Assembly (NCBI GenBank): GCA_031082285.1
Contig: JAVHLK010000039.1
Location: forward strand, 1 to 43,853
Reading direction: 5' to 3'
Length of the DNA stretch: 43,853 nt
Origin: Desulfomonilaceae bacterium
GTDB taxonomy: Bacteria > Desulfobacterota > Desulfomonilia > Desulfomonilales > Desulfomonilaceae
Shown here piece by piece: positions 6,160 to 27,005 of this stretch. Below the pieces are notes generated by a model, which had not been told where the DNA came from, did no database searches, and saw nothing but the letters and a program-made list of their open reading frames with translations. The position numbers and the translations under genes are program-made. The number at the start of each line of letters is the position of its first letter. Position 1 is the first letter of the stretch.

Positions 6160-6696
6160 GTAGCCTCCCTTAGATCTTAATCAAGCGATGTCTGCGGACG
6201 TTTCCCCTTTCGATGAATCATCGTGCGCCGCTCAGCGACAACCGGGAAATGGAATTACATCTGGTCCGATGCGTGTGTCCGAGTGATATTGGCTCGTCTG
6301 GTGTGCGGCCGTTCACGGCAAGTCGCTCGCGGTCCTCTGCATCCGATGCTGAGGAAAGTCGCCGCCATCGGAATTCCATGCGTCACTTTTCTTGCCGACG
6401 CATTGGTCGGAACCAGTCTCAAAAGGCCCAACAAAACACATAGCAAAAGCCCGAGAATCAGTCAAGCAGGGGTTTGTTGAGCCGTGCAGTACAAGGCGGC
6501 CGACGCTCACGGCTCACACCGGTCCGCGGGATCGGATCCGGCGCTTTCAGGTCGCGTGCGGCCGGTACCCCCGGCGCAATGAGCGAGGCCATGATCTATT
6601 CGTCCGCACACCGCGCAGGTCGGACTCTTGGAATTGAGATGGCAGAGTCTCTTTGACGGAGCAAGACCTCACAATGAGCTCCGGGTATCAATCAAA
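6160..6696. other. Intergenic stretch without recognised features
   Basis: This 537-bp gap separates ilvE from the upstream membrane-protein gene, both on the minus strand. Only short frames without Shine-Dalgarno sites or recognisable motifs occur in it. No convincing promoter for ilvE, terminator or repeat was found. Confidence 0.5.
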
Positions 6697-16411: not shown

Positions 16412-16945
16412 TTGAGAAATGTTACTGTTGTCAAAGTGATCATGGTCTCGGTAGCCCTGTGCATGTTGCTGAGCCAACCGGGACGGACCGAGGACGCGAC
16501 CGAACCCTCGAACCAGGATGAGGCCGACATCATGGAACAGCCCGGGCGACTGTTCGATATGCAGGTTCCGGAAGGGTTCGAGCCGGTGCCTACGGATGAA
16601 GCCGGCATACTCAAATGGAAGAAGGATTCCGCAGAGATCTACCTTGTAGTGGGCGATCTGTTCGTCGAGTCCGGCGACGAGTTGTTCAAGGCGCTGCGCA
16701 AGGCTGCCGGAGACGGAAAGAACCTCGATAAGGTCGAGACCGTCAAGATTGAAGGCGGACAGGCCATGCTTCTCAAGGAGAAGCCTCCGGGAGAGTCGGA
16801 ACGGCCCATGACATGGCGTCTGGTAATCGTGCTGGACAAGAAAGTGATCAATGTGGATTTCACTGCTCCCGCAAAGGATTTCGACCGGTTCCGAGGCGAC
16901 TTCATGAAAGCCCTGGATTCCTTCAGACTCAAGACCGATTCGTAA
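16412..16945 (+). CDS. Secreted protein of unknown function
   Basis: A 177-residue protein with a signal peptide (basic start, hydrophobic 8-21). The start is a TTG at 16412, chosen because GGAGG lies eight bases upstream. The mature part (LFDMQVPEGFEPVPTD..., ending DFMKALDSFRLK) looks like a compact alpha/beta periplasmic domain resembling photosystem-II-PsbP-like or DUF folds in outline only; no family was recognised. It precedes selA by 17 bp on the same strand, so the two are probably co-transcribed, but a functional link is unproven. Confidence 0.7.
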   Translation: MRNVTVVKVIMVSVALCMLLSQPGRTEDATEPSNQDEADIMEQPGRLFDMQVPEGFEPVPTDEAGILKWKKDSAEIYLVVGDLFVESGDELFKALRKAAGDGKNLDKVETVKIEGGQAMLLKEKPPGESERPMTWRLVIVLDKKVINVDFTAPAKDFDRFRGDFMKALDSFRLKTDS

Positions 16946-16962
16946 CGAGAGGACGGGTTGTC

Positions 16963-18390
16963 ATGCAGGATCGCGCAACGAACAACCTGCTCCGATCGAT
17001 TCCTTCCGTGGACAGGCTTCTGTCGGACCACCTTTTTGAAGAAATCAAAAAAAGATATTCCGATGAGATCGTCAAACGGATGGTCAGACTGGCTCTGGAC
17101 GAGCTCAGAGAAGAGATCCGTGAGGGGAGGGCGGGGCCGGCGGAGTGTACCGTCGAGGCGCTCGCGGCGCGGGCTTGGAGAACAGCCCTCTCGCGGGTCG
17201 GCCCGAGGGTTCGGACGGTGATCAACGCCACCGGCGTGGTGGTTCACACGAATCTCGGCCGTTCGCCTTTGTCCAAGAAGGTTGCCGACAGAATCTCCCG
17301 GGTTGCTCTTTCCTACTCCAATCTCGAGTACGACCTGGAAAGGGGGAGACGAGGCGAGAGGAACTCACATCTACGGATGCTCATGCAGGAACTGACCGGT
17401 GCTCAAGCCGCGCTCGCGGTGAACAACAATGCCGCCGCGGTCCTCCTGGCACTCTCGACTCTGGCCGAGGGCCGCGAGGTCATCGTTTCCAGGGGAGAAC
17501 TCATCGAGATCGGGGGATCGTTTCGCATTCCCGAAGTGATGGCCCGATCCGGTGCCGTCCTCAAGGAAGTGGGCACCACGAACCGTACCCATCCGCGCGA
17601 TTATACCGATGCCGTGGGCGAACACACGGCGCTCATCCTCAAGGTACACACGAGCAATTACCGAATCGTCGGATTCACGAGAGAAGTGGGGCTGGAGGAG
17701 CTGGTGGGAATCGGTCGCGAAAAGGGCATCCCGACGATGATGGACTTGGGCAGCGGCTGTCTGACGGATTTGTCCGCGTACGGATTGGCCGAAGAGACGA
17801 CCGTGCAGGAAGTCTTGGCCAAAGGGGTCGACGTGGTCACTTTCAGCGGGGACAAATTGCTCGGCGGTCCCCAAGCGGGCATAATTGCAGGCCGCGCGGA
17901 CTTGATCGAACGGATGCGCACGAATCAGCTGGCCCGGGCCCTGAGGATGGACAAGTTGACGCTTGCGGCTCTCGAAGCCACGTTGGAAGAATATACGAGG
18001 CCGGAAGGACCGTTTGCGGGAATTCCAACCCTGGAGATGATCGCCAGACCTCGGGAATTGCTGGAAGAAGCCGCCTTGTTGCTCTGCCAGTCAATACGGG
18101 ACCGCACTGGGGATCGTTGTGAAGTCACAATCGAGCAGGGTGTCGGCCGTGTTGGAGGAGGGGCCCTGCCCATGAGCGATCTCCCCGGACCCCGAGTGGT
18201 GATTCGACCGCGGCACGTGTCCGCTGCCCGGCTGGAAAAAGGATTGCGAGAGGGAGATCCTCCGGTGATTTGTTTGGTCAAGGAAGACGCGGTCATGATG
18301 GACCCGAGGACGTTGCTCCGCGACCAAGTGTCGCTGCTCCCCCAACTCGTCGCGAAGGTATTCGACGGGGAAACGGACCACAGGGGTTGA
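16963..18390 (+). CDS. selA: L-seryl-tRNA(Sec) selenium transferase
   Basis: PLP enzyme converting seryl-tRNA(Sec) to selenocysteinyl-tRNA(Sec) with selenophosphate, so the cell should decode UGA as selenocysteine. 475 residues, normal length. The N-terminal domain (IPSVDRLL) is followed by INATGVVVHTNLGRSPLS and the PLP lysine K298 in FSGDKLLGGPQAG, close to the E. coli K295. ATG 16963 follows GAGAGGA; upstream codons belong to the overlapping frame of the preceding gene. selB, selC and selD are not in this window. A candidate selenoprotein lies about 5 kb to the right (22466-22804). Confidence 0.96.
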   Translation: MQDRATNNLLRSIPSVDRLLSDHLFEEIKKRYSDEIVKRMVRLALDELREEIREGRAGPAECTVEALAARAWRTALSRVGPRVRTVINATGVVVHTNLGRSPLSKKVADRISRVALSYSNLEYDLERGRRGERNSHLRMLMQELTGAQAALAVNNNAAAVLLALSTLAEGREVIVSRGELIEIGGSFRIPEVMARSGAVLKEVGTTNRTHPRDYTDAVGEHTALILKVHTSNYRIVGFTREVGLEELVGIGREKGIPTMMDLGSGCLTDLSAYGLAEETTVQEVLAKGVDVVTFSGDKLLGGPQAGIIAGRADLIERMRTNQLARALRMDKLTLAALEATLEEYTRPEGPFAGIPTLEMIARPRELLEEAALLLCQSIRDRTGDRCEVTIEQGVGRVGGGALPMSDLPGPRVVIRPRHVSAARLEKGLREGDPPVICLVKEDAVMMDPRTLLRDQVSLLPQLVAKVFDGETDHRG

Positions 18391-18565
18391 CGGCATCCAA
18401 TGTCCGGCGTGCGGAAACCTTGAAATGGAAGAGCAGACATATGATGAAATCGTGTCTCAGGGCGGAGAATCCATCAAGCGAACTGATGGGCTTCTACCGC
18501 GTTTCGTCGGACCGGGCGGAGCCCTGGAAACTGTCTCAAAACTCCGGCATGGAGACAAATCGTAG
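18386..18565 (+). pseudogene. Possible zinc-ribbon gene remnant after selA
   Basis: In one frame directly after selA the translation reads VDGIQCPACGNLEMEEQTYD and continues in coding-like fashion to about 18513. It then runs into the inverted-repeat element and stops at 18563-18565. The CPACGN knuckle suggests half a zinc ribbon. No ATG, GTG or TTG start lies in this frame near the right place and a second CxxC is missing. If it was a gene, it is truncated by the element or starts at a non-standard codon. Chance is a real alternative. Confidence 0.25.
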
Positions 18566-18775
18566 CACGATGTGGATTCATTTTCGTTTCGCAATGCGAT
18601 ACGGGTTGCCACCTCGTTGCGGACGTTTGCTGCAGACCTATGTAGGGGCGGGTTTTATACCCGCCCGCAATCTAGCGCTCAGAATCGGGCGGGTGTAAAA
18701 CCCGCCCCTATCACCGCGGCGTGCCACGATTTGGGCGTACATTTGAGTTTTGAGACAATTTCCCTGTGTCCGCCC
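18514..18775. mobile_element. Nested inverted-repeat element, MITE-like
   Basis: A 262-bp element with no coding capacity. The outer 31-bp arms (18514-18544 and 18745-18775) match at 26 of 31 positions and end in GGGCGGA; their inner 13 bases TGTCTCAAAACTC are identical. Inside lies a second pair of 25-bp arms (18643-18667 and 18686-18710), 24 of 25 identical, built on TAGGGGCGGGTTTTA. It sits between selA and the pseudouridine synthase gene. No target-site duplication was identified. The sequence GGGCGGAGCCTGGGAACGAGG (18838-18858) may be a fragment of a related repeat. Confidence 0.6.
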
Positions 18776-21954: not shown

Positions 21955-22242
21955 TTACCATCCCAATCGACGTCCGTAGCCCACTCCTTGGCCTCCACCC
22001 ATGCCCCTTTTTCCGCGCATCCCGGGCCCGAAGCAGTAACCGTCTCGGTACCCTCGAGAATACGTATCCGGACTCGGGGGGGCCGGAAGGGTCCCGTATG
22101 CCATCGGACAGTCTCCGTACCCCATCCACGCCGGTCCGCCACCGCGTGCCCAATATCCTCCACCGTTCCAGGCGTAAGATCCCGCGCCGGCTATGGCCGT
22201 AATCAACAACGCGGCGAGAATGACAAGCAACAGTGTCTTCAT
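21955..22242 (-). CDS. Small secreted Gly/Tyr/Arg-rich protein
   Basis: A 95-residue protein. The first 20 residues are a typical signal peptide (MKTLLLVILAALLITAIAGA). The mature part is rich in Gly, Tyr and Trp with two lone cysteines (GDCPMAYG, DGYCFGPG) and ends in basic Gly-rich repeats, so it is probably unstructured or envelope-bound. ATG 22242 has a strong AGGAGG about seven bases upstream. A terminator follows it. It is 223 bp downstream of the candidate selenoprotein gene, perhaps with its own promoter. No family recognised. Confidence 0.75.
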   Translation of the reverse strand: MKTLLLVILAALLITAIAGAGSYAWNGGGYWARGGGPAWMGYGDCPMAYGTLPAPPSPDTYSRGYRDGYCFGPGMRGKRGMGGGQGVGYGRRLGW

Positions 22243-22465: not shown

Positions 22466-22804
22466 CTATGCCTTGCCGGATCGATCTTTCACGTATACTC
22501 GGTATTCTCTGAGCAGAGCATACGCGTACTCTCTCCGTACACGTTCCGAGTCGGGAATATAGTTCTTTCTTTCCTCCAGTCGTTTGATTATTTCTTCGGC
22601 GGTCTCGTCGGTTGCCTTCATGCCTTCGGCATAGAGTTCCGACAGGATATCGTCCAGACCGTTGAGGCCGACTTGCGTGTCATCCGGGAATTTCAATATA
22701 CGCCGGCCAACTGCCGGCGGCGCCGGGACTCAGCCGTCTTTTCATCCGTTTTCTTCACGCGGCGGAATGGACTGATTATTCTCGAGGAAATCTTCCGAGC
22801 TCAT
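22466..22804 (-). CDS. Small conserved-looking protein; candidate double selenocysteine protein
   Basis: The reading frame from ATG 22804 to the stop at 22466 has 112 codons and is interrupted only by two UGA codons (22744-22742 and 22732-22730), giving ...REENG-U-KDG-U-VPAPP and then a long open part. The ATG has AGGAG at a good distance. The only start inside the uninterrupted part is TTG 22696, which has no Shine-Dalgarno site. A perfect 7-bp hairpin follows the second UGA. The open part (KFPDDTQVGLNGLDDI...) is soluble and helical, with the conserved-looking block NYIPDSERVRREYAYALLREY. selA is encoded nearby. It lies downstream of the Fe-S and arsenite-permease genes. Alternatives: a gene of 76 codons from TTG 22696, or a decayed gene. 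The open part is surely coding; the selenocysteine reading is inference. Confidence 0.6.
22701..22719 (-). promoter_or_regulatory. SECIS-like hairpin
   Basis: On the minus strand CGCCGGC-AGTTG-GCCGGCG is a perfect 7-bp stem with a 5-nt loop. The loop's second base is G, 19 nt after the nearer UGA and 31 nt after the first. Both distances fall in the range given for bacterial SECIS elements (apical loop about 16-37 nt downstream, G in the first two loop bases). It is inside the open reading frame. Confidence 0.4.
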
Positions 22805-22823
22805 CCGTCTCTCCTCTTTGCGT

Positions 22824-22949: not shown

Positions 22950-24341
22950 TCAACTCGCCGATGACCGATACGTATCGTACGCATGCTTCATTATCTCAAT
23001 CGGATGCGACACCTGATACCGCGTCAGGTGGTTGAACTGGTACCGGCAACCAAGACAATCGGTAAGGAGCTTATCGGGGTCGAGCGCCTTGATACGGTCG
23101 ATCAGCGTGTTCGCCATCTTGATCGAACTGTCGTGAAAGTCACGCTTGAATCCCATGATCCCGGCGGCTCCGCAGCAATAGGAGTATCCTTCAATGGAAT
23201 CGATCTTCAACCCGGGAACCAGAGACAACAGATCCGCGTACGGATTCCCGATCCCCTGTTCCCGAAGGTGACAAGGAGGATAGTACGCGCAACGCGCGGT
23301 CACTTCGCCGAATGTCGCATCAAGCTCGCCGAGTCTGTGAAGATTTCTCAAGTATTCCCCGAGATCGTAGGTATTTTCCGCGACCAAGACTCGCTTCAAT
23401 CCGTTAAGTCGAGCGAAATAACCCTCATCCTTCATATGTCTGAGACCATGCAGACGACCGTATTCGCTTATCCATCGGCCGGTTCTCCGCTCAATAGGGA
23501 CTGAAAGAAGATTGTTCCAGTCGGCCTCGCCCAAACCGTGTGCAGCCCTGTATTCGTCGGAATAATGGGCGCCCTGCTTCAAGAGTATTTTCAGTGCAAA
23601 TCCGCACGTAGGGCATGAGCATACGATGTCATAACCTTCCTCCACCGCTTCGGCAAGCTGGTCCAGATTGAACCCGGCAAGTTCAAGCGCCAACTCTTTG
23701 TCGCCTTCGAGCAGAGGAGGCATGCCGCAGCACTTCTGTTCCGGTATGTGAACCTCTACTCCGTTGCGTTGCAAGATCTCGACCGCGGCCGTGCCCACAT
23801 CAGGAACGTAATATCGTGCGCTGCAGCCTGCAAAATAGGCCACCTTGCGCACGGCGTTTGCCGGCCGGCGGACGGGCTTTGTTCCGTCTTTCATCCGATC
23901 CGAGAAGCTCTCTTTGGGGAACGGCGGAAAACTCCGATCCTTGTGAATGCCGAGTGCGCTCTGCAGGAGGCCCTTTGTTACCGGGTTCCGGAGGAAGAAG
24001 TTCGAAATCCCCGGCACGGCGCCCGCGACGCGTCCGACGAGCTCAACCCGTTCGATGGCCTTGATCTTAAGCGGCAGACCGTTCCTTGCAACGAATTCGG
24101 TCTTCGCCTCCATGAGGGACGTGGGGACTTCGGGGCAAGGGCAGGTCCCGCAAAGATTGCAGAGATCTATCAGGCGCCTCATGTCATTGGTCGTAATCTT
24201 TTCCCCCGATTCTTGCCTCTCGTCCCAGATCTTGTACAATTCCGGGAACATCTGGCAACCTTCCTCAAACACGGTTCTGCAGCAATCGCAGTCCGCACAA
24301 CGTTCAATCCAGTACCGAAGCTTGTCTTCAGCGCTCATCAC
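22950..24341 (-). CDS. Fe-S oxidoreductase with two CCG domains (GlpC/HdrB-like)
   Basis: A 463-residue cytoplasmic electron-transfer protein. The N-terminus holds ferredoxin-like cysteine clusters (CADCDCC...C and CNLCGTCPCP). Two cysteine-rich CCG domains follow: the first with AGCSARYY and EQKCCGMP, the second with YYPPCHLREQ, YSYCCGAAG and DCLGCRYQF. Such domains bind [4Fe-4S] clusters in heterodisulfide reductase B and anaerobic glycerol-3-phosphate dehydrogenase C. No GlpA/GlpB or HdrA/HdrC partner is nearby; instead it lies 34 bp after the ACR3 permease in the same direction, so it may serve metalloid or thiol redox chemistry. ATG 24341 follows AGAGG. The partner and substrate are unknown. 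Confidence 0.85.
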   Translation of the reverse strand: MMSAEDKLRYWIERCADCDCCRTVFEEGCQMFPELYKIWDERQESGEKITTNDMRRLIDLCNLCGTCPCPEVPTSLMEAKTEFVARNGLPLKIKAIERVELVGRVAGAVPGISNFFLRNPVTKGLLQSALGIHKDRSFPPFPKESFSDRMKDGTKPVRRPANAVRKVAYFAGCSARYYVPDVGTAAVEILQRNGVEVHIPEQKCCGMPPLLEGDKELALELAGFNLDQLAEAVEEGYDIVCSCPTCGFALKILLKQGAHYSDEYRAAHGLGEADWNNLLSVPIERRTGRWISEYGRLHGLRHMKDEGYFARLNGLKRVLVAENTYDLGEYLRNLHRLGELDATFGEVTARCAYYPPCHLREQGIGNPYADLLSLVPGLKIDSIEGYSYCCGAAGIMGFKRDFHDSSIKMANTLIDRIKALDPDKLLTDCLGCRYQFNHLTRYQVSHPIEIMKHAYDTYRSSAS

Positions 24342-24375: not shown

Positions 24376-25614
24376 TCATATTTCCGTCTCCTGGGACCGC
24401 ATAGCGGCCGTTGCCGTTGCAGGCGATTCCCTGCTGAACCAATGCGGCGTGCACAAACAGATCTTCACGAGCATCAGCATTACCGGCACCTCGATGAGCA
24501 CTCCCACCACTGTGGCAAGGGACGCCCCTGATGACAGGCCGAAGAGCATGGTGGACGTGGCGATGGCCACCTCGAAGTGGTTTGATGCACCGATCATTGC
24601 CGACGGAGCAGCGTCCTCGTAGGTCAGCTTGAGTACTTTGGCCAGACCGTACGCGAGCCAGAAAATGATGTTCGTCTGAATGAAGAGCGGGATTGCTATC
24701 CACAGTATCGTGAGCGGATTGGAAACAATTACCTCGCCCTTGAAAGAGAAGAGCAGAATCAGCGTGATCAACAACGCGATGATGGTTACGGGAGTAAGAA
24801 CGTGGAGAAACTTCTCTTTGAACCATTTTTCTCCCATCGCCTGTATCAGGAATTTTCTCGAGAAATAGCCGGCCACCAACGGCAGGGCAACATAGATGCC
24901 TATGGAAAGGAGCAGTGCCTGCCAGGGAACCGGAAGTCGCCCGACTCCCAGGAGAAACCCTCCCAACGGCCCGTACAGAAACAACATGGTCAACGAGTTG
25001 ATGGCCACCATCACGAGGGTATGTCCATCGTTTCCTCTTGCCAGAAATCCCCACACAAGGACCATGGCCGTGCACGGTGCGATGCCGAGAAGGATGCATC
25101 CGGCCAAGTAGCTTCGCCATAATGGCACTTCAAGCATTTTCACGCCGTCAACCAAGACCACCTTGCCCTCTCCGTGCGAACCCCCAACCGGGAGGTCCAG
25201 CCCCAAAGGCATTTTCACGTAATCCACGGCATCGGGTCCAATGAACGTGAGGAAGAGCGTGCCGAGGCAAAACACCGAGATGGCATACATGGTGAAGGGT
25301 TTGATCGCCCAGTTGACGAAGAGCGTCAGCCCCACCGGTTTAATGTTCTTGCCTGCTCGGAGGACTTCCCCAAAGTCAATCTTCACCATGATGGGGTACA
25401 TCATGAAGAACAGACAGATCGCTATGGGGACTGACACGACCGGCGCTTCGTTCACGTAGATTGCCAACCCATCGAGAAACTGAGCCACTTCCGGGGCAAG
25501 CTTGCCGAGGACAATTCCCGCGATTATGCACAGGATGACCCAAACCGACAGGTACTTCTCAAACAGGGACAATCCCTTGGTCTCTTTTGTCATACACACT
25601 GCGGGTTCGCTCAT
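24376..25614 (-). CDS. acr3: Arsenite efflux permease, ACR3 family
   Basis: A 412-residue inner-membrane transporter with about ten hydrophobic segments that exports arsenite using the proton gradient. The essential-cysteine motif is [12 protein letters not shown], and the late segment [14 protein letters not shown] is characteristic of ACR3 (BASS superfamily). A 40-residue insert between early helices ([20 protein letters not shown]) is longer than in short ACR3 proteins. ATG 25614 follows GAGGGAG. The downstream Fe-S protein gene is 34 bp away, so the two are probably one transcript. The upstream small Cys-rich gene is 136 bp away. Likely controlled by the ArsR at 26595-27005. Confidence 0.94.
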
Positions 25615-25750: not shown

Positions 25751-25984
25751 TCAATCCCATTCGTTACGGCCCACACAGTCGCGGCAATCCATTACCTCCC
25801 GGCCGCCGAGGTCGTGACATTCTTCAATAGTCTTGAAGTCGCACTCGACGACCTTTGGGTTGCAGGTGCACGCAAGACGACAGCACGGAATCTTCGCTTC
25901 CCGGGAAGAAAGGGTGCCTGCACCGGGGAGGACCACAATCACAATCACAATCACAATCACAAGGAAAATCAAGATATTCTTCAT
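25751..25984 (-). CDS. Membrane-anchored Cys-rich protein
   Basis: A 77-residue protein: one N-terminal membrane helix (KNILIFLVIVIVIVIVVLPG) and a mature part with seven cysteines, in the order CC, CTC, C, C and CRDC. Cysteines in this spacing could bind arsenite or a soft metal in the periplasm or serve as a metallochaperone; inference from context, just upstream of the ACR3 permease gene in the same direction. ATG 25984 follows GGAGAAGGG. The frame stays open upstream but without a ribosome-binding site. The helix is encoded by a hexanucleotide repeat. Confidence 0.7.
   Translation of the reverse strand: MKNILIFLVIVIVIVIVVLPGAGTLSSREAKIPCCRLACTCNPKVVECDFKTIEECHDLGGREVMDCRDCVGRNEWD
25934..25962. 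repeat. Hexanucleotide tandem repeat CACAAT
   Basis: Nearly five tandem copies of CACAAT (minus strand ATTGTG) encode the Val-Ile repeat of the membrane helix of the Cys-rich protein. Gain or loss of a unit would lengthen or shorten the helix by two residues without changing the frame. Confidence 0.8.
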
Positions 25985-26127
25985 CGACCCTTCTCCGAAT
26001 AACATCGATTGAGTGTCGTCGGGCCGGCAGCCGGCCCATTTGGCGGAATCTGTTCTTTGCGAAGCCTCACATGAGGAGGAGACCGCGGATTGAGAAGGTA
26101 TCCCAGAGATTTTCCGTCGAACCAAAC

Positions 26128-26424
26128 TCAAACCGACGATGGAATTGCCTCCATGAGTATTAAGTAGTCGGCATCCTGAGAGATCTTATAAACCTCTTCC
26201 GTTGCAGCAGCGACAATACCGGCCGCGGTAAGAAGATTCGACTTATCTGCCTGTTGGACAAGGATCTCAAGAAGTCGTGTATAATAGCGATGGGGACCCG
26301 GGCGACGGCGGAGACACAGTACGGAAGGCTCTCGCCAAAACGAAATATCCCTCGGTGTCCGGTCTGCGTGGAGAATAAGCCGAACATCTGCGATGAGATT
26401 GTGGAGGCATCCGGAATTGCTCAT
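26128..26424 (-). CDS. Small unknown protein of the metalloid island
   Basis: A 98-residue soluble protein, first gene of the leftward unit. ATG 26424 has a near-perfect AAAGGAGG seven bases upstream. The second half (RYYTRLLEILVQQADKSNLL...VYKISQDADYLILMEAI) is helical and coding-like; the middle (DISFWREPSVLCLRRRPGP) is less regular. No motif recognised. It is driven by the strong promoter TTGACA-N16-TATCAT at 26573-26546 that overlaps the arsR promoter, so it is probably arsenite- or metal-regulated. It is followed by the membrane-anchored Cys-rich protein. Confidence 0.6.
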   Translation of the reverse strand: MSNSGCLHNLIADVRLILHADRTPRDISFWREPSVLCLRRRPGPHRYYTRLLEILVQQADKSNLLTAAGIVAAATEEVYKISQDADYLILMEAIPSSV

Positions 26425-26594: not shown

Positions 26595-27005
26595 ATGAAC
26601 GCCGAGGAGATGCAAGACAGGGTATTCTGCGCCCAACAGCCGAAGATCGAGGAGCGTCCGCTGTTGAGCCAAGAAATGTCGGAGTTGCTTGAGGCCACCT
26701 TCAAAGACTTGGCAAACAGCACAAGATTGCGCCTTGTACATGCCCTGATCCGGGAGCCGGGTATGAACGTGGGGGACCTTGCCGCGGCTCTCGGAATGAA
26801 CATCACCGCCATTTCCAATCATCTGCGAAAACTCACGGACAGGGGAATCGTGAGACCGCAACGGGTCGGCAAGCAGGTGAACTACAGCATCGTAAATCCA
26901 TGCACCGTGAGTCTCCTTGACCACGGACTCTGTTTGGCGGAAGCTCTTCTGGAAGTCAGACCGGTCATGCCCGACATGGGAGCATCGGTAACTCGGCTTG
27001 GATAA
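26595..27005 (+). CDS. arsR: ArsR/SmtB-family metalloid-responsive repressor
   Basis: A 136-residue winged-helix repressor: LANSTRLRLVHALIREPG (helix 2-3), recognition helix region MNITAISNHLRKLTDRGIV, wing VRPQRVGKQVNYSIVN. Cysteines are at 12, 103 and 113 (NPCTVSLLDHGLC). They differ from the helix-3 CxC of classic E. coli-type ArsR and may form a sensor site of another type; the effector is inferred from the ACR3 neighbour. ATG 26595 follows AAGGAG. The divergent promoters at 26523-26577 allow it to control itself and the leftward unit. Followed by the 4Fe-4S protein gene. Confidence 0.92.
   Translation: MNAEEMQDRVFCAQQPKIEERPLLSQEMSELLEATFKDLANSTRLRLVHALIREPGMNVGDLAAALGMNITAISNHLRKLTDRGIVRPQRVGKQVNYSIVNPCTVSLLDHGLCLAEALLEVRPVMPDMGASVTRLG

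Follow-up and report, generated by a model that had tools for sequence, protein, structure and literature searches.

A putative bacterial double-selenocysteine protein family served by a single SECIS-like hairpin and often encoded beside arsenic-efflux genes

We found that a small gene in a 43,853-nucleotide stretch of DNA from a Desulfomonilaceae bacterium (hereafter, the window) very probably encodes a genuine selenoprotein in which both of two in-frame UGA codons are read as selenocysteine (Sec), although no protein data are available. The best overall explanation, to which we assign a probability of roughly 0.6, is a selenoprotein whose selenol pair captures trivalent arsenic for efflux by ACR3 or ArsP; this function is inferred and rests on neither protein nor phenotype data.

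The gene (22466–22804, minus strand) would encode 112 residues, from ATG 22804–22802 to a TAG stop at 22468–22466, as judged from the frame and from comparison with its family. AGAGGAGAGACGG precedes the ATG, and the Shine–Dalgarno sequence GAGGAG was read at 22811–22816 (minus strand). The frame reads MSSEDFLENNQSIPPREENG-U-KDG-U-VPAPPAVGRRILKFPDDTQ..., and its only interruptions between ATG and TAG are TGA at 22744–22742 (Sec21) and TGA at 22732–22730 (Sec25), both on the minus strand. An earlier sequence-only reading had proposed exactly this start and this twice-interrupted frame, open to 22466, and re-reading of the sequence bore it out. The homologous upstream start was preceded by a loose Shine–Dalgarno pattern in 15 of 16 loci. 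The open reading frame listing of the window starts the gene at TTG 22696 instead. No Shine–Dalgarno sequence precedes this TTG, as that reading had also stated, and the codon was CTG in 14 and TTG in 12 of 44 aligned rows and hence is not conserved as a start.

The effect of selection on the sequence after the UGAs was assessed by comparison with the relative L038. In the 74 codons of the body, 40 were identical, 22 differed synonymously and 12 nonsynonymously, with 9, 4 and 26 changes at codon positions 1, 2 and 3, respectively. The 20 codons before the first UGA were less constrained (6 identical, 5 synonymous and 9 nonsynonymous). Because of this pattern of codon change, and because the body is homologous to UGA-free proteins, we regard the sequence 3′ of the UGAs as protein; at the level of sequence comparison, these data establish that protein constraint acts on it.

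Relatives were collected in several searches. Among 99 genomes (the window's own and its relatives), we detected five close relatives besides the window gene, each of the six having two in-frame TGAs just before the conserved body, and a scan of genome contigs gave 16 loci, again all with two TGAs; some of these 16 lay on the same contigs as in the 99-genome search. Of 395 genomes of the phylum, 75 had matches, which were members with two TGAs, Cys forms and also longer proteins. Finally, all collected loci were scanned uniformly in six frames, which left 44 distinct rows with two UGAs: the window and 43 relatives, among them L116, a truncated copy from the same genome as L117. Both codons were TGA in all 44 rows. 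Ten rows scoring at least 45 with no UGA pair were left out: L087, with a single UGA; L104, which is decayed; L105 and L111, at contig ends; five Cys paralogues; and one fusion. In L087 (genome G348; Sec gene near 6252–6254, minus strand), TTA stands in place of the first TGA and the second TGA is kept, which could represent either a genuine single-Sec variant or an error of assembly. L104 (6876–7110) retains both UGAs; a deletion has removed the hairpin described below and part of the body and has shifted the frame. The double-UGA members came from the window's phylum and from metagenome-assembled genome records titled Desulfomonile, Desulfohalobiaceae, Thermodesulfobacteriota, Nitrospiraceae, Spirochaetes and Proteobacteria. 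Since G420, the genome of L039 (titled Nitrospiraceae), was the sole match among 295 genomes of its phylum, L039 and the Spirochaetes member L044 may be transfers or mis-binned contigs. No relative of the Sec gene was found in viral contigs or, by tblastn, in plasmids and phages.

The spacing of the UGA pair varied among clades. The proposed U-x3-U motif was confirmed in the window, but it is not a fixed feature of the family: of 41 rows, 13 had U-x3-U, 24 had U-x2-U and four had U-x4-U; these counts omit three rows lacking the Val anchor of the hairpin. In a tree of the bodies, the form with two-codon spacing made up one group with support of 96/89 (few columns were available, and 13 forks remained open). 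The sequence-only reading had further named homologues with Cys or UGA at both positions as a supporting test. The UGA part of this test was fulfilled, but no aligned CxxxC was found: the eight Cys relatives that were read carried CC (six) or CxC (two) in the N-terminal tail, and this pair could not be aligned to the Sec pair without gaps. Profiles of the Cys and Sec forms nonetheless matched in hhalign with a probability of 99.8 and an E value of 2.7e-29. Five Cys relatives from three genomes (L046, L106, L107, L108 and L110) share a contig with a Sec copy, that beside L110 being cut by the contig end, and the genomes of L156 and L157 (G353 and G411) hold a Sec form elsewhere. For G316, the source of the Cys form L159, no double-UGA member was listed in the 395-genome search.

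We then examined the SECIS-like hairpin (22701–22719, minus strand), which is placed to serve both UGAs and was assessed by covariation, synonymous-codon conservation, a covariance model and folding. In the window it is CGCCGGC-AGTTG-GCCGGCG, with a 7-bp stem (22719–22713 paired with 22707–22701) and a 5-nt loop (22712–22708) whose second base is G; it begins 11 nt past the second UGA, and its loop lies 29 nt from the first UGA and 17 nt from the second. According to a 2026 review (PMC13188914), bacterial SECIS elements lie 16–37 nt after the UGA and have a loop of 3–9 nt, a stem of 4–16 bp, G in one of the first two loop positions and a minimum free energy of −7.5 or lower. The window hairpin satisfied all of these rules (distances of 17 and 29 nt, a 5-nt loop with G as its second base, a 7-bp stem and −18.4 kcal/mol for the 48-nt fold), so the geometry that had been claimed from the sequence alone was upheld. 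Over the 41 anchored rows, the loop distance ranged from 17 to 23 nt from the second UGA and from 26 to 32 nt from the first.

To the 41 anchored rows, alignment A2 (43 rows) adds the hairpins of two of the rows without the Val anchor, the third being identical. Paired cells made up 84.1% of the hairpin against 78.1% in shuffled alignments (0 of 500 as high), and 19 cells were changed on both sides against 7.3 in shuffles (0 of 500), with one pair seen as A-U, G-C and C-G; structures slid along the alignment paired at most 45.8% of cells. Pairs with a double change were, however, no more numerous than in shuffles (3 versus 2.2; 154 of 500). The two outer pairs were each unpaired in 18 of 43 rows, and therefore the firm core of the hairpin comprises five pairs. 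The second loop base was G in all 43 rows. Synonymous conservation was strong at hairpin codons −2 to +2 (z of 11.2, 12.7, 29.2, 8.5 and 9.1) and not strong in the five codons directly past +3; because several later codons also scored high (e.g., 8.2 at +25 and 12.4 at +38), this measure includes shared descent. The covariance model gave 34.8 bits (E of 2.6e-6) to the window site, which is itself among the 43 training rows, against 13.1 bits for the next best site in the window. In the whole genome, it was again the best site (34.8 versus 20.3 bits) among the 150 of 1,502 first-look candidates that were scored. Rfam at its gathering threshold gave no match in the window.

Folding of single sequences gave a less uniform picture. 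The 48 nt past the second UGA of the window did fold into the hairpin, whereas 58 nt around both UGAs alone preferred another GC-rich fold (z of −1.0). Across the 44 rows, the minimum-energy fold of the 48 nt contained four or all five core pairs in 35 and fewer in nine, and its energy reached −7.5 kcal/mol in 40. The claim of a hairpin therefore rests mainly on comparison. The VxRR residues encoded by the hairpin are absent from the Cys forms, which have no UGA and need no such element. Together, these comparative results show that the mRNA carries two UGAs at a spacing of two to four codons, with a single conserved SECIS-like hairpin behind them, and the main selenoprotein reading is supported by the 43 relatives that keep both UGAs and by the covariation of the hairpin.

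The genome contains the bacterial machinery for Sec incorporation. The selA gene (Sec synthase) had been noted in the window and was confirmed there (16813–18390, plus strand; TIGR00474, 597.9 bits), and selB (393.9 bits, over the cut-off), selD (366.4 bits, itself with an in-frame TGA) and a Sec tRNA with a tca anticodon were all found in the genome, so that selA, selB, selC and selD are present together and the lack of selC or selB, named in the sequence-only reading as refuting, does not apply. We considered the co-occurrence of selB with the Sec gene as support and dropped it, since selB was over the cut-off in 35 of 38 genomes on the carrier list (three of which proved to have no Sec member) and likewise in 37 of 40 genomes of the phylum without a Sec form found. 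Because it is near universal in the phylum, selB permits Sec reading and does not argue for it. Between selA and a pseudouridine synthase gene, we also observed inverted repeats with 25-nt arms, 96% complementary and 18 nt apart (18643–18710), inside an outer inverted repeat with 31-nt arms, 84% complementary (18514–18775); they may represent an interspersed or mobile repeat.

An AlphaFold model was generated from a 17-row alignment with Cys in place of Sec. The protein has a predicted ββααα body (residues 34–112; 22469–22705, minus strand), whose blocks in residues 41–110 had pLDDT values of 84–93. The tail with both Sec sites had a mean pLDDT of about 42–50 and is probably disordered according to this model, although the low values may stem from the shallow alignment. 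No known structure matched convincingly: a PDB sequence search gave nothing at E ≤ 1, Foldseek gave no match at E ≤ 0.001 (the best PDB match, E of 1.1, was the leader-peptide-binding protein TbiB1), and fold comparison by VIA gave Z of at most 4.9, too weak for naming a fold. Among sequence models, the window protein matched no Pfam model and no NCBIfam family at E ≤ 1, eight relatives had only chance-level NCBIfam matches at E ≤ 10, and no Pfam or NCBIfam model covered the short proteins that were scanned.

The same body is common to the Cys homologues and to fusion proteins of about 170 residues, in which it forms the N-terminal domain ahead of a C-terminal Thioredoxin_3 domain (PF13192). 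The Sec-protein body and the fusion N-terminal domain matched in hhalign with a probability of 99.1 and an E value of 5e-19. These mini-thioredoxin fusions, one of which is encoded next door to the Sec gene in L101, begin at about the TTG 22696 point of the domain and carry CxxC in the C-terminal domain. A fusion scored 27.6 bits against the MTH895/ArsE family TIGR00412, below the cut-off of 62 (a truncated sequence was scanned). For the window protein, neither PF13192 nor TIGR00412 gave a match at E ≤ 1; no thioredoxin domain was found in it, and it has only the body in common with the fusions.

Next, we characterized the genomic neighbourhood. In the window, ACR3, a GlpC-like Fe-S protein and the Sec protein are encoded in this order on one strand, with ArsR and a further Fe-S protein past ACR3. 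The ACR3 arsenite efflux permease (24376–25614, minus strand) scored 374.4 bits with TIGR00832 (cutoff 282.8). The GlpC-like CCG-domain protein (22950–24341, minus strand; PF02754), encoded directly upstream of the Sec gene here and in L101, was below every listed NCBIfam curated cut-off. The divergent ArsR-type regulator (26595–27005, plus strand) scored 45.1 bits with PF01022 (cutoff 22). It is followed by a recurrent island neighbour with a C-terminal Fe-S motif, PF04060 (27047–27613, plus strand), found in 14 of 46 loci including the window; the N-terminal part of this protein is uncharacterised. The arsenite-permease unit named in the sequence-only reading was confirmed. Two small frames were also observed on the minus strand. 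One, Cys-rich and preceded by a low-complexity IVIVIVIV stretch, lies between ACR3 and ArsR (25751–26131) and had no Pfam match at E ≤ 0.001. The other, just past the Sec gene (21955–22242), encodes a Gly/Trp/Tyr-rich, probably exported protein and occurs in none of the other loci of the 46-locus set.

Within 6.5 kb of the Sec gene in these 46 loci (window included), ACR3 was found in 25, the PF04060 and DsbD-like proteins in 14 each, the long thioredoxin and the mini-thioredoxin fusion in 12 each, ArsR in eight, ArsP in seven and ArsM in six; family names were assigned from representatives, and many flanks are cut by contig ends. Among the 25 ACR3 loci, 18 had the Sec gene 3′ of ACR3 and on its strand. 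At least one of ACR3, ArsP and ArsM was present in 30 loci and absent in 16. The claimed tie to metalloid efflux accordingly holds for most loci but is not universal. Thirteen loci had none of ACR3, ArsP, ArsM, ArsR, the mini-thioredoxin fusion, long thioredoxin, DsbD-like and PF04060 proteins; a DsbA/VKOR-like gene (Thioredoxin_4 in the representative) was found in four of these, a PhnD-type gene with a kinase in one, and nothing that was sought in eight. Two of these eight, L104 and L108, adjoin a heavy-metal P-type ATPase (just upstream in L104), and L119, L113 and L123 have unrelated neighbours, judged from sequence starts.

A search of 36 carrier genomes for acr3 gave a match in 29, over the cut-off in 26. 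Among 28 copies over the cut-off, 20 lay within 10 kb of the Sec gene and 18 within 5 kb, as against 0.19 expected within 10 kb under random placement; pairs split across contigs are missed by this count. No acr3 match was found in the other seven carriers (G013, G102, G219, G277, G298, G359 and G406), of which G219 and G359 have ArsP beside the Sec gene. These results establish a strong, though not universal, association of the putative Sec gene with arsenic-efflux genes, as read from gene positions. A PhnD-type periplasmic binding protein (PF12974 in the representative) was also observed 3′ of the Sec gene in L048, L087, L092, L094 and L112, with sensor kinases (HisKA/HATPase_c in the representative) in four of these five loci; such a combination of binding protein and sensor kinase resembles arsenic-sensing gene sets.

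Two alternatives to a selenoprotein were weighed against these data. The upstream frame with its two UGAs might be noise and TTG 22696 the true start, as a gene caller that stops at UGAs would have it, and the mini-thioredoxin fusions do start at about this point. The sequence-only reading had named homologues of this kind, without an upstream Cys or Sec pair, as potentially refuting; they exist, but they are distant, and no close relative of this kind was found among the full-length members from the six-frame scan. Since both UGAs are kept in 43 relatives together with a conserved hairpin, and since the TTG is neither conserved nor preceded by a Shine–Dalgarno sequence while a loose Shine–Dalgarno pattern precedes the upstream start in 15 of 16 loci, a chance open frame is refuted by the comparative data and can be practically dismissed. 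Alternatively, the UGAs might usually terminate translation, with selenium- or arsenic-dependent readthrough sensing supply for the operon and the body as a by-product. In-frame stops near a start codon followed by a hairpin do look like attenuation elements, and arsenic disturbs selenium metabolism. However, the body evolves under protein constraint, as its mostly synonymous codon changes show, and is homologous to translated proteins without UGAs; moreover, because the gene follows ACR3 on the same strand in 18 of 25 loci, it stands at the wrong end for a leader. We consider this regulatory role very improbable.

As for function, some role in metal(loid) detoxification seems likely, with no phenotype data to support it. 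Whether the protein is a chaperone or ligand rather than a redox catalyst is evenly poised, arsenic binding being inferred. On the redox side, U-x(2–4)-U would form a diselenide/diselenol couple of very low potential, fed by the Fe-S GlpC-like protein or thioredoxin, whose target for reduction might be the mini-thioredoxin, arsenate or an organoarsenical, or a permease disulfide; the protein would not carry arsenic. This possibility, the main rival although we hold it to be somewhat doubtful, stays close because so many neighbours are redox proteins: the long thioredoxin (12 of 46 loci), DsbD-like (14), PF04060 Fe-S (14) and mini-thioredoxin fusion (12) proteins, as well as the GlpC-like protein adjoining the Sec gene in the window and L101. 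In addition, most uncharacterised selenoproteins are likely redox proteins according to PMC13188914. Set against it are the location of the Sec pair in a tail with a mean pLDDT of about 42–50, its clade-dependent spacing, the lack of a thioredoxin domain, and CC (six) or CxC (two) in the eight Cys forms. Because the tail is probably flexible, the spacing drifts (CC, CxC, UxxU, UxxxU and UxxxxU) and no thioredoxin domain is present, a chaperone or ligand is preferred; we infer that spacings ranging from 0 (CC) to 4 residues are easier to reconcile with chelation than with a folded redox site.

The preferred reading, arsenic capture by the selenol pair, would proceed as follows. SelB and Sec-tRNA, acting on the single hairpin, would decode both UGAs, as inferred from the established bacterial pathway, to give a product whose mobile N-terminal tail carries Sec21 and Sec25 ahead of the compact ββααα body. 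This selenol pair (in Sec-less forms, vicinal or near-vicinal Cys) would then act as a soft-metal clamp that takes up cytoplasmic trivalent arsenic, or an organoarsenical or other thiophilic ion, and would pass its cargo on to whichever permease lies nearby, ACR3 or ArsP. The body may be a module that docks on a partner, a role suggested by its occurrence, in proteins encoded in some of these islands, as a fusion with an ArsE-like mini-thioredoxin. This mini-thioredoxin and the thioredoxin, DsbD-like and Fe-S proteins of the island might keep the selenol pair reduced. In its most specific form, which we put forward only tentatively, the protein would be a selenium-based arsenic metallochaperone of anaerobic bacteria, with a mobile two-Sec tail (one SECIS, free spacing) and a docking body, forming a capture-and-regenerate pair with the ArsE-like mini-thioredoxin that feeds ACR3 or ArsP.

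The earlier description of the protein as uncharacterised was sustained, as no library model matched it and a literature search covering open-licence PMC papers (subscription papers were outside its scope) found no description of the family. PMC13188914 tabulates 119 prokaryotic selenoprotein families, and none was recognisable as the window family by domain or motif. The family adds a double-Sec protein, present in many genomes of one phylum, to those that gene callers stopping at UGA truncate or miss, and ties selenocysteine directly to arsenic-efflux islands. It also brings to light a small unnamed domain common to Sec, Cys and mini-thioredoxin proteins and, with one short hairpin inferred to serve two UGAs of drifting spacing, offers a natural case for testing the spacing rules by which SelB decodes.

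Several known systems resemble the family in part. Double-Sec UxxU families (the putative mercuric reductase/metal-binding NF041115, FmdB-like TIGR02605 and Prx-like PF00578; PMC13188914, Table 1) likewise have closely spaced Sec pairs, and metal links are suspected for some of them, whereas the window protein has another predicted fold (a short ββααα), a spacing of 2–4 and no NCBIfam match. Against the NCBIfam selenoprotein families SaoC, SaoT, MbdU, CC/Se motif, UXX-star and FmdB, it did not meet the cut-off criterion. The Sao-type proteins (SaoC NF040734, SaoT NF040730 and SaoE NF040736) are similarly Sec proteins near metal(loid) efflux genes, and the ArsP neighbour in L090 scored 102.5 bits against SaoE, under the cutoff of 325; in contrast, the window gene matches no Sao model and the nearby permease is more often ACR3 (25 of 46) than ArsP (7 of 46). 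A Brachyspira protein (PMC5330540) has Sec in an N-terminal extension, and the window body is the N-terminal domain of fusions resembling the MTH895/ArsE family TIGR00412 in some islands; unlike both, the window protein lacks a thioredoxin domain, and it has two Sec rather than one. No ArsD model appeared in the Pfam and NCBIfam family scans of the window protein and its relatives. The arsenic metallochaperone ArsD, which hands arsenic to the ArsA ATPase, would work alike in that paired chalcogen residues carry As(III) to an efflux system, a purely functional analogy. Together, these comparisons suggest that the window family is a double-Sec form, not found described, of a known kind of bacterial selenoprotein, built on an unnamed domain.
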